Shown in pieces: positions 14,738 through 19,100 of a stretch of 64,000 nucleotides of DNA; the first letter of the stretch is position 1, and every line of letters starts with the position of its first letter. The notes beneath the pieces are model-generated. The model saw only the letters and a list, made by a program, of their open reading frames with translations. It made no database searches and had not been told where the DNA came from. The stretch covers positions 186,001 through 250,000 of the forward strand of contig NC_064466.1 in assembly GCF_023343835.1 (NCBI RefSeq), written 5' to 3'. The stretch is from Lagopus muta (Eukaryota; Chordata; Aves; Galliformes; Phasianidae). The position numbers and the translations under genes were made by a program.

Positions 14738-17700
14738 TCAGGAGGTGAAGTAGGAGCTCTGCATGGAGTACAGTCGGTCGATGGGGTTGCCCACGCGGGC
14801 TTGCAGGAGGTTGGCTTCGGCCGTCGACAGCAGGCAGTCCCCCAGGTGGCTGATGCTCTCGCTGTCCATGTCATGGAAAACTCCTTCTGAATCTGGAAGA
14901 GGAAAGAAAGAAGAATGGGCATCCATGCGGTACGAGCACGGCGAGCTGCTGTGTCACTGCAGCGGGGCCTGGAGTCGCCTACCATGAGTCGGAGCCACCC
15001 AACAGGAGCAGGAGCCCCCAACCCAACTCCTGTTGGCCGTTTGGGTGGAACCCAAGGATGGATTTCACAAGCCTCACCCCAACTCACCTTTCACGGGACC
15101 CCAGCCTTTAGCAGGGCTCAGCCTGGAGGCTGTGTCCATCCCCTGGGACCCAAACCCAACCCCTACTGTCTGTTTGGATGGAACCCAACGATGGCTTTGG
15201 TGGGTTGGATGGCCTTGGTGGGTTGGATGGCTTTGGTGGGTGGGATGGCTTTGTTGGGTGGGATGGCCTTGGTGGGTTGGATGGCCTTGGTGGGTTGGAT
15301 GGCCTTGGTGGGTTGGATGGCTTTGGTGGGTGGGATGGCGTTGGTGGGTTGGATGGCTTTGGTGGGTTGGATGGCCTTGGTGGGTTGGATGGCCTTGGTG
15401 GGTTGGATGGCGTTGGTGGGTTGGATGGCCTTGGTGGGTTGGATGGCCTTGGTGGGTTGGATGGCCTTGGTGGGTTGGATGGCTTTGGTGGGTGGGATGG
15501 CCTTGGTGGGTTGGATGGCTTTGGTGGGTGGGATGGCCTTGGTGGGTTGGATGGCCTTGGTGGGTTGGATGGCCTTGGTGGGTTGGATGGCTTTGGTGGG
15601 TTGGATGGCCTTGGTGGGTTGGGAGTTGCTCTCCTACCGTAGGGGTGCAGGTGGTCTCCGGGCAGCTGTGGTGGGGTGAGGCCCTGCCTGTAGAGGTCCG
15701 TGCTGTAGCCATTCTGGTCCAGGGCCAGCAGCTGCTGCTGGGGGAGCCGGGGGTATGGGACCATCAGCCCATCCAGGCCGTGAACGCTTGCACCATCTAA
15801 AGACAGAAGCGTGGGACGGAGGGGGAGAAGGGGCGCAGAGCAGTGGGGCGAAGGCGTTAGAATCCTATCATGTAATTCCTGACTCCTAAAATCACAGAAT
15901 TTTGGAGTCATCGAATATCACTTAATTATACGACCCCAGGATCGCGACATCCAAGAATCACAGAACCCTACATGTCGCAGATTGTCGTGGAGTCGTAGAG
16001 CATCATAGAATCCTGGAATCACCACAGAATCTTAAAATCACACAATTCTGGAGTCATGGGATATCAGAAAATTATAGAATCATGGAATCCTACAGTCGTA
16101 GAATCATGGAATCATGGAATCATAGAATCATGGAATCATGGAATCATGGAATCATGGAATCATAGGATTGTGGAATGCTGGAATCTTAGTGTCATCGAAT
16201 CCCAGAATCCTGGAATCACAGAACCCTGGAGTCATAGAATATCATAGAATCTGGACATCACAGAATGGCAGAATCCTGGATCTGATGAATCCTGGAATCA
16301 TTGGGTACCATCGTATCCGAGAATCCTGGAACTCCAGAATCCTAGAATAACAAAACCCTAAAATGCCATAGAATCACGGAACCCTTGAATCCCCGGAACC
16401 ACAGAATATGGTGGAATCCCGGAATCAGATTTTGGCTGATTTTGAGGCTTTTGGCCTCGATAGCCCCTATGCAAACCCCCCCCCCCCCCCCACATCGGTG
16501 CTCAGTGCTCCTCACCTTCGCTGTCGTCGTTGCTCTGCCTGCTGCTGCGCCCGGTCCCCCTCCCGGACCCCAGGCGAGGATTGCCCATCTGCTCCTGCTC
16601 CTGCTGCTGCTGCTGCTGCTGCTGCCTGCGTGCAATCTTCTTCATCTGCAGGAAGAAGGAGACCCCAAACCTGAGGTTCTGAGGCAGGAGGGGATGCAGG
16701 TGCCTCCCACTTTTCATAGGCAGCGAGGATTGCCATCATGCATCCCCTCTCACAGGGGGAGCAAGGTGTGAGCAATGGGGCCGCCAGGAAAGGGCAGCAC
16801 ATTTCTGATAGGAAATGCCATCTGAGGCGTTTGAGGGCTTCGTTTCTGCCCTCACCCTTTGCATTCTGCGACATGGAAGGGTTCTCCCTCGTGGGGAAAA
16901 AAAAAAAAGGTGGGGGAATCCTCCTCCTCTTCCTCATCACGCAAAAAGAGCCATTAAAAAAAGGCAACAAAAAGGAAAACATTTCAGCTCTGCAAACACC
17001 TCTGCGTTTCCTGTGTTCCTCTCCAAGCTTTTGCTCCCAGCACATCCAACGCTACCCCACCACGTGTGGTTTGATCCCACAGAACAGGTTTTTTGCTTTT
17101 TCTTTTCTTTTTTGTTTTTCTCTCTTGTTTTCTTGCAGCGGAACGAATGTGGGACTTTCCCCTCACCCACCTTTGCTCTTTGGTTCTGGAACCACACCTG
17201 CACCACCCGCACCGTCAGCCCCGTCTCCGCCGCCAGGGTCTCCCTCACCTATCAAGCATAAACGAAGAGGAGAGCTGAGTTCAGAAATGAACGAGGCCCC
17301 AATGGGCTCCGTGCCCACTGAGCTGCCCCGCTGTACCTTCCTGCAGGGTTTGGAGGAGACCTCAAAGGAAGCCTTGAACGCCCTCCTCTGCTGCGTGGTG
17401 AGGATGGTGCGCGGGCGCTTGGAGCGTTTGTGGTCTTTGCTGTCCTCGCTGCCTTTGCCGTGCGAGTGGCTGCCGTCCTCATCCTCGCTTTTCACTGCAG
17501 GGGAAGATGGGGAGAGGTGAATTTCGGGGTGAAAGCGCAAAGGAATGCTGAGTTTTGCTCCTCTCGGTGTGCAGTTTTGGCCAGAAGAACGGAATGAAGG
17601 CAGCGGAGCTCATGGGCTGAGCTGTGGCCAAAGTGGGACGGTCACAGAGCCATGGAGTGGTTGGATGGGTGGGATGGAAGGGTCCTTAAGGGTCATAGAA

Positions 17701-19100
17701 CCATGGAATGGATGGGACCTCAAAGGTCGTGGAACCATGGAATGTTTGGGACCTCAAAGGTCATGGAACCATGGAATGGTTGGGTTGGATGGGACTTCAA
17801 AGGTCATGGAACCATGGAATGGTTGGGTTGGATGGGACTTCAAAGGTCATGGAACCATGGAATGTTTGGGTTGATGGGACCTGAAAGGTCATGGAACCAT
17901 GGAATGGTTGGGACCTCAAAGGTCGTGGAACCATGGAATGGTTGGGTTGATGGGACTTCAAAGGTCATGGAACCATGGAATGGATGGGACCTCAAAGGTC
18001 GTGGAACCATGGAATGGTTGGGTTGGATGGAACCTCAAAGATCATGGAACCATGGAATGGTTGGGTTGGATGGGACTTCAAAGGTCGTGGAACCATGGAA
18101 TGTTTGGGTTGATGGGACCTGAAAGGTCATGGAACCATGGAATGGATGGGATCTCAAAGGGCATGGAACCATGGAATGTTTGGGTTGATGGGACCTGAAA
18201 GGTCATGGAACCATGGAATGGATGGGACCTCAGAGGTTGTGGAACCATGGAATGGTTGGATTTAAAGAGACCTTGAAGATCAGAGAATGGCGGAATGATT
18301 GGGTTGGGTTGGAAGGGTTCTCAAAGACCACAGAGTCATAGAATGGTTAGGGTTGGAAAGGTCCTTAAAAGTGATTGGATGGGACCTCAAAGATCATGGA
18401 ATGGTTGGGTTGGGTTGGAAGGATCCTTAAAAGTAATTGAACCATGGAATCGGTTGGTTTGGATGGGACCTCAAAGATCATGGAATGACGGAATGGTTGG
18501 GTTGGGTTGGAAGGGTCCTTAAAAGTAATTGAGCTATGGAATAGGTTGGTTTGGATGGGACTTCAAAGATCATGGAATGATGGTTGGGTTGGGTTGGGTT
18601 GGGTTGGGTTGGGTTGGGTTGGAAGGGTCCTCAAAGACCATAGAATCATAAAACATGTTGGCTTGGGAAGGTCCTTAAAGATAATTGAACCATGGAACGG
18701 GTTGTGTTTGAATGGAACCTTACACATCATGGAACCACAGCGTGGTTGGGTTAGAAGGGACCCAAAAGCCCCCCCAACCCCCCCTGCTGTGGGCAGGCTG
18801 TCCGAATCCCGCCACAACCATTAATCCCACCCCACCGGCCTCATTCTCCGCCTCTCCAGCTCCTCACCGGACTCGGTTGGCGTGGGGCTGATGGCACTCA
18901 GCATCTCCTTCTCCTTCTCGTAGTCGCTGCGGCACAGCAGCTGCCCTTCCTTGAGCACAAACTCGTCTCCCCGCTGCAGACGCCGCTCACACTCGCAGCA
19001 ATAGAAGCAGTGGACGTGGTAGACGTTCTCCAGCACCCGCATGATGAGCTCGGAGGGAGCGATGGCCTTCAGGCAGCTGCTGCACTTGGTCTGGAAGAGC
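14738..19100 (-). CDS. LMX1-family LIM-homeobox gene, 3' six coding exons
   Basis: LIM-homeodomain transcription factor. Exons on the minus strand: 19100-18868, 17494-17337, 17248-17171, 16645-16516, 15796-15638 and 14892-14738 (TGA 14738-14740). Phases join perfectly over 303 residues. Exon 19100 holds LIM2 with zinc ligands CSSC, HVHC, CCEC and CRSD. The next two and the start of the fourth encode a 60-residue homeodomain ([19 protein letters not shown] ... [15 protein letters not shown]). Then come a polyglutamine run, [16 protein letters not shown] and the C-terminal [27 protein letters not shown] and [14 protein letters not shown] resemble LMX1B, while GDHLHPY and the FTS end resemble LMX1A, so a separate paralog is likely. 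LIM1 and the start codon are not found in readable sequence to 44 kb; they may be in the gap at 40952-41451. Introns carry minisatellites. Confidence 0.93.
15185..15628. repeat. 18-bp minisatellite in an LMX1-like intron
   Basis: About 24 copies of ATGGCCTTGGTGGGTTGG and variants. Because the unit is 18 bp, all six frames stay open and give false proteins such as GLGGLD or GHPTHQ repeats. It stops about 10 bp from the donor of exon 15796-15638. Confidence 0.95.
15885..16415. repeat. Degenerate CR1 terminal-repeat array
   Basis: Short AATCATGGAATCATAGAATCC-type units of about 9-10 bp, corresponding to the reverse complement of the CR1 terminal octamer repeat, spread over 530 bp of intron. Confidence 0.8.
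16600..16630 (-). repeat. Coding CAG repeat (polyglutamine) in the LMX1-like exon
   Basis: A CTGCTG run on the plus strand reads as eight glutamines followed by EQEQ, immediately after the homeodomain (KKIARR). LMX1A and LMX1B also have short Q runs here. Confidence 0.9.
17640..18750. repeat. CR1-tail minisatellite in an LMX1-like intron
   Basis: About 27 units of 35-45 bp around CATGGAACCATGGAATGG and GATGGGACCTCAAAGGT, becoming more degenerate to the right, with a (GGGTT)n run at about 18590-18620. Confidence 0.92.

Follow-up and report, generated by a model that had tools for sequence, protein, structure and literature searches.

The DNA analysed here, a window of 64,000 nucleotides from the genome of Lagopus muta (positions 186001-250000 of a 687 kb contig, C41), contains an LMX1 gene that is neither LMX1A nor LMX1B. 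This third LMX1 lies beside a PBX gene and VAV1, neighbours of the same kinds as those of LMX1A and LMX1B; it is therefore very probably a survivor of the two rounds of whole-genome duplication (2R) that has been lost in human. The linkage is the main and strongest evidence for such an ohnolog, and its dating rests on linkage in one genome and on a small tree. A preliminary description of this stretch had proposed a distinct LMX1 ohnolog by VAV1, an idea that is supported here by the PBX/VAV linkage and by best trees placing the gene outside LMX1A and LMX1B. The human LMX1A, LMX1B, PBX1, VAV1 and ATP13A1 sequences used throughout as queries and references were working copies entered by hand.

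The third LMX1 comprises six exons on the minus strand, running from window position 19100, the first base of its LIM2 exon, to 14738, the last base of a TGA stop codon, exactly the limits (14738..19100) given in the preliminary description. All five introns are of the GT-AG type, and the joined exons (913 nt) are in frame and encode 303 amino acids with no internal stop:

18868..19100, minus strand, LIM2 exon; Pfam LIM at 18911-19084, eight zinc ligands C-C-H-C-C-C-C-D
17337..17494, minus strand, linker and first homeodomain exon; VKSEDEDG...SSKPCRK
17171..17248, minus strand, second homeodomain exon; [26 protein letters not shown]
16516..16645, minus strand, MKKIARR and poly-Q exon; longer than its LMX1A/B counterpart
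15638..15796, minus strand, C-terminal exon 1; ...[16 protein letters not shown]
14738..14892, minus strand, C-terminal exon 2 with the stop; ...[17 protein letters not shown]

Pfam recognized one LIM domain (62.2 bits), assigned to LIM2 by its position and retaining 8/8 zinc ligands, and a Homeodomain (68.1 bits); the nearest PDB chain is the LMX1A homeodomain (120.7 bits). The homeodomain is identical at 57 of 60 positions to both LMX1A and LMX1B of the same genome, differing at positions 1, 41 and 59, and the exon boundaries and C-terminus agree with those of both genes, so that the LMX1-type LIM2, homeodomain and C-terminus described earlier are all present. The homeodomain is under constraint, with a nonsynonymous distance (dN) of 0.021 against a proportion of synonymous differences (pS) of 0.41 to LMX1A and 0.87 to LMX1B. 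Introns at conserved positions rule out a retrocopy. In the alignment, the poly-Q run and about 20 residues of the exon at 16516-16645 have no counterpart in LMX1A or LMX1B.

Both known genes exist elsewhere in the same genome, a check that the preliminary description had called for. When the third LMX1 protein was searched against the whole assembly (1.03 Gb, 165 contigs), 46 matches were obtained with 130 of 141 candidates scored, and at this coverage the genome has three LMX1 loci, on contigs C41, C8 and C22. The C8 gene is LMX1A, with 78-88% identity per exon to human LMX1A (69% for the start exon, and only 62.5% for the homeodomain match, as it crosses an intron). The C22 gene is LMX1B, with 82-96% identity per exon to human LMX1B, apart from one weak match (54%, E 0.08) that overruns an exon. 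Both have their start, LIM1 and LIM2 exons as well as those for the homeodomain and the C-terminus. The third LMX1 is 71.7% identical to this LMX1A and 67.6% to this LMX1B (hereafter the bird LMX1A and LMX1B), compared with human-bird identities of 88.0% for LMX1A and 93.5% for LMX1B. The high homeodomain identity might suggest the species' own LMX1A or LMX1B, relocated or duplicated by the assembly, but this hardly deserves credence: both genes, with the exons just named, sit on C8 and C22, which refutes it, and the third LMX1 is only 67-72% identical to either.

Three contigs share the same set of genes. A search with human PBX1, in which all 63 candidates were scored, gave 30 matches. Twenty-three of them, at 57-96% identity, fall at C8 24.19-24.30 Mb (8), C22 9.71-9.80 Mb (8) and C41 146.6-158.4 kb (7), the only contigs to which this query assigns PBX genes; the other seven, at 38-48% identity, are on C2, C3, C9 and C15. 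With human VAV1 there were at least 57 matches, the counts being lower bounds as 54 of 149 candidates were scored. Thirty-three of these form four clusters, at C8 19.80-19.95 Mb (11), C22 7.05-7.14 Mb (9), C41 (11) and C42 (2, amino-terminal only), and 24 are scattered lone matches at 32-55% identity. When the SH2-SH3 part of the VAV gene in the window served as query, C8 and C22 ranked next below C41, with other SH3 matches close. The distance to PBX is about 26 kb for LMX1A (C8 24.14-24.17 Mb), about 234 kb for LMX1B (C22 10.03-10.13 Mb) and about 42 kb for the third LMX1 (C41 200.7-205.1 kb), which is also about 25 kb away from the end of VAV1. Taken by contig, the matches thus indicate that C8, C22 and C41 each carry a single PBX, a single LMX1 and a single VAV body. 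The paralogon argument first made from VAV alone is therefore stronger than claimed, since PBX too accompanies each of the three LMX1 genes.

The order on C41 is PBX - ATP13A1 - third LMX1 - VAV1, and two of these neighbours reach into the window:

44604..59888, minus strand, VAV1, 3' part; stop-side end at 44604, with matches to the human VAV1 query continuing past the window to C41:268971
1..4255, minus strand, ATP13A1, 5' part; 23 tblastn matches in all to a partial human ATP13A1 query, the gene running on to C41:174710

VAV1 thus adjoins the third LMX1, as previously noted, and is on the same strand. Among PDB chains, the C41 VAV matches VAV1 at 158.5 bits and VAV2 at 86.6 bits, with no VAV3 chain among the matches listed. 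In four stretches matched in more than one gene, it is closer to human VAV1 than are the C8 and C22 VAVs, e.g. 71% versus 56% and 54% in the SH3 domain and 77% versus 54% and 59% in residues 466-504. The amino-terminal VAV exon departs from this, as human VAV1 is matched better there by the C8 copy (75%) than by the C42 piece (62%). Between them, the C8 and C22 genes would be VAV3 and VAV2. ATP13A1, first spotted by eye from a ranking of open reading frames by composition, is a neighbour of PBX4 on human 19p13.11, and because it neighbours the C41 PBX we name the latter, presumptively, PBX4. LPAR2, another neighbour of human PBX4, gave no match in C41:156001-350000, and three single exons of the ATP13A1 and PBX genes had no Pfam match (three of four queries empty). 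Human VAV1, VAV2 and VAV3 are on 19p13, 9q34 and 1p13, respectively. Human LMX1A is at 1q24.1 and LMX1B at 9q33.3 (PMC2211742).

C8 and C22 also share pairs of LIM-homeobox genes (L006/L012, L023/L028 and L022/L025), of which the first is presumably LHX3/4-like; judged by these sequences, the two contigs look paralogous beyond LMX1, PBX and VAV.

Trees were computed under the LG and JTT models from an unrooted set (human and bird LMX1A and LMX1B plus the third LMX1), from a set in which four LHX genes from this genome served as outgroup, and from a core alignment of LIM2 and homeodomain only. The best tree in every test places the third LMX1 outside both LMX1A and LMX1B. In the unrooted set, the approximately unbiased (AU) test rejected it as sister to human LMX1A, human LMX1B or bird LMX1B (p <= 0.0052), and the stricter Shimodaira-Hasegawa (SH) test rejected just the two LMX1B placements. 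On the core, AU rejected the LMX1B placements (p <= 0.043) and human LMX1A, and SH rejected none. A position inside LMX1B is thus rejected by every AU test, and by SH when the full alignments, though not the core, are used. The three possible rootings of LMX1A, LMX1B and the third LMX1 lie within 1.2 log-likelihood units (lnL) of each other. Grouping inside the LMX1A or LMX1B clade had been set in advance as a refutation of the ohnolog proposal; for LMX1B this grouping is rejected, whereas for LMX1A a position outside is the best tree and the sister relationship to bird LMX1A is not cleanly rejected.

The residues tell a similar story. At 42 sites that separate LMX1A from LMX1B (human and bird being identical within each), the third LMX1 is A-like at 20, B-like at 7 and has residues of its own at 15, which bears out the mixture of paralog features noticed earlier. 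It shares with LMX1A the motif GDH.HPY, the FTS end and the exon structure from LIM2 to the stop, and with LMX1B the motif NPIDRLY; VKSEDEDG is identical to human LMX1B, whereas bird LMX1B has VKSDDEDG. It differs from LMX1A in its contig and neighbours, in its longer exon after the homeodomain, in the LIM1 exon, which was found for LMX1A but not here, and in sites with an LMX1B state or its own residues. The motifs quoted in the preliminary description ([56 protein letters not shown]) are all there, but SMQSSYF is not specific to LMX1B, as the LMX1A of the same genome ends in SMQSSYFTS.

The alternative that deserves most attention for the origin of the gene is that LMX1A was duplicated in birds or sauropsids only, the copy then moving into the PBX-VAV1 region and evolving fast. 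Several results speak for it, and the fruitless searches for a LIM1 exon described below also count against the favoured reading as a whole. As sister to bird LMX1A, the third LMX1 was not rejected by AU in the unrooted set (0.128 LG, 0.246 JTT) or on the core (0.164, 0.162), and SH never rejects this placement (0.18-0.47). Moreover, it carries 12 residues found only in bird LMX1A against 5-6 found only in human LMX1A, its synonymous distance (dS) to LMX1A is low and below saturation (0.60 in the homeodomain, 0.77 in LIM2), and its excess of identical codons has the largest z with LMX1A. Nevertheless, on the rooted full alignment the same placement is 18.0 (LG) and 14.7 (JTT) lnL worse than the best tree (AU 0.025 and 0.056; SH 0.178 and 0.226), so that, by the alignments used, it appears disfavoured with borderline rejection. 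The third LMX1 also shows the LMX1B state at 8 sites that are fixed in human and bird LMX1A, against 21 with the opposite pattern. Three of the 12 shared residues match an LHX outgroup and two match both LMX1B proteins, so these five may be retained old states; the other seven are not explained in this way. A duplicate would, in addition, need to have inserted by chance between the PBX and VAV genes of one and the same paralogon, and altogether we consider this history very improbable.

The codons bear on the same question. Where two genes encode the same amino acid, we compared the number of identical codons with that in shuffles. For the third LMX1 and LMX1A, 119 were observed and 96.0 expected (1.24-fold, z 4.85), for LMX1A and LMX1B 82 and 65.6 (1.25-fold, z 3.24), and for the third LMX1 and LMX1B 73 and 60.8 (1.20-fold, z 2.70). 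The three PBX pairs on the same contigs gave 72/61.1, 65/54.2 and 52/42.2, i.e. 1.18, 1.20 and 1.23-fold (z 2.27-2.36). By fold excess, the third LMX1 looks about as old as the LMX1A-LMX1B split, whereas by z alone it would be nearest to LMX1A. A recent origin from the low dS was rejected, given the similar fold excess in the LMX1A-LMX1B and PBX pairs. The low dS should also be read in the light of third-position GC, which is high in both the third LMX1 (0.85) and LMX1A (0.76), compared with 0.46 in LMX1B.

The gene as decoded in the preliminary description is incomplete, its start and LIM1 exons being found in no contig. No LIM1 exon was detected in the window by tblastn with human LMX1A and LMX1B (E up to 10), nor in C41:156001-350000 by an unfiltered search with a hidden Markov model built from four LMX1 LIM1 sequences. 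A search of all 165 contigs with the bird LMX1A start and LIM1 exons (E up to 10, 33/33 candidates scored) likewise revealed no third set. Because VAV1 ends at 44604, these exons should, provided that the scaffold is right, fall in the interval from 19100 to about 44600, which includes an assembly gap:

40952..41451, no strand, 500-N assembly gap flanked by two unlike repeat stretches; proposed site of the start and LIM1 exons

LMX1A and LMX1B have their start and LIM1 exons packed into about 1 kb of GC-rich and CpG-rich sequence (5' ends with GC 0.68 and CpG observed/expected ratio 0.89 for LMX1A; 0.74 and 1.08 for LMX1B), and a CpG scan of window positions 19.0-45.5 kb revealed weak GC-rich spots only (ratio 0.57-0.81), with no LIM1 match there. 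A second 500-N gap, at C41:269184-269683, is separated by about 0.2 kb from the last VAV1 exon detected on this contig. VAV1 seems to be split between contigs: residues 276 onward are on C41 (to C41:268971) and residues 1-108 on C42:81291-91774 (plus strand), with residues 109-275 unmatched on both. We infer from these matches that the C42 piece is probably the front of VAV1; the scaffold join at the second gap may be wrong or incomplete. Given this gap so close to a VAV1 exon and the amino-terminal exons on C42, exons seem to be lost at such gaps here, and those missing from the third LMX1 probably exist and fell into the gap at 40952-41451.

The lack of a third LIM1 exon could also mean that the gene is a degenerating or 5'-truncated relic, either dying or a single-LIM variant. 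This concerns the state of the gene and is thus compatible with an ohnolog origin, but we judge it unlikely: a stop-free frame of 303 codons, five GT-AG introns, the complete set of LIM2 zinc ligands and a homeodomain with 57/60 identity and such a low dN argue against it, and the interval where the exons are expected contains a gap of the kind at which exons seem to drop out on this contig.

Tandem arrays fill the introns and flanks of the third LMX1 (window positions 12950-13866, 15190-15622, 17691-18259, 21034-22373 and others), and Tandem Repeats Finder masked 35,576 of the 64,000 bases. Similar intron repeat expansion has been reported for genes of bird dot chromosomes (PMC12954441).

LMX1 genes specify fates in the dorsal limb, roof plate and inner ear and those of midbrain dopamine and serotonin neurons; the chick is a classic model for them. 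By its sequence, the third LMX1 would encode a LIM-homeodomain transcription factor. Its homeodomain recognition helix is the same as in LMX1A/B, and the protein is predicted to bind A/T-rich LMX1 sites and, by way of one or more LIM domains, to recruit LDB-type cofactors. By analogy to LMX1 biology, it may act in dorsal, neural or serotonergic fates.

No report of a third LMX1 ohnolog was found among the papers listed in a literature search judged by titles and abstract openings, in a corpus mostly without subscription papers. A census of human homeobox genes lists LMX1A and LMX1B as the Lmx family (PMC2211742), and there are 12 LIM-class genes in human and 12 in mouse, in 6 families (PMC3141429); by these human and mouse counts the third LMX1 would be absent from mammals. 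In a paper from 2026, Lmx1a and Lmx1b are regarded as the paralogs derived from one invertebrate gene (PMC13086785). A survey of bird dot chromosomes, also from 2026, restricted its count to ohnologs that have a human ortholog, and its main text contains neither "LMX1" nor "VAV1" (PMC12954441). In zebrafish, lmx1al marks tph1b-positive enteroendocrine cells (PMC12714231, PMC12346124) and a hypothalamic cell type (PMC12239631), and in Pogona an "lmx1a-like" gene (ENSPVIG00000024375) is expressed more in female than in male gonads (PMC10163765). Both are named as extra LMX1A-type genes and may belong to the same lineage as the third LMX1.

We regard as evenly balanced a broader proposal, in which the jawed-vertebrate ancestor already had the third LMX1, which the mammal line has lost but birds, lizards (Pogona "lmx1a-like") and teleosts (zebrafish lmx1al) retain; as an ohnolog it would have gone unnoticed in birds because it lies in a repeat-rich region of a small chromosome; the LMX1A/LMX1B redundancy of non-mammals would then be a three-gene system. 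Dot-chromosome surveys limited to ohnologs with human orthologs (PMC12954441) miss those that human has lost. A third paralog kept in birds would, if true, alter the reading of LMX1 redundancy in non-mammals.

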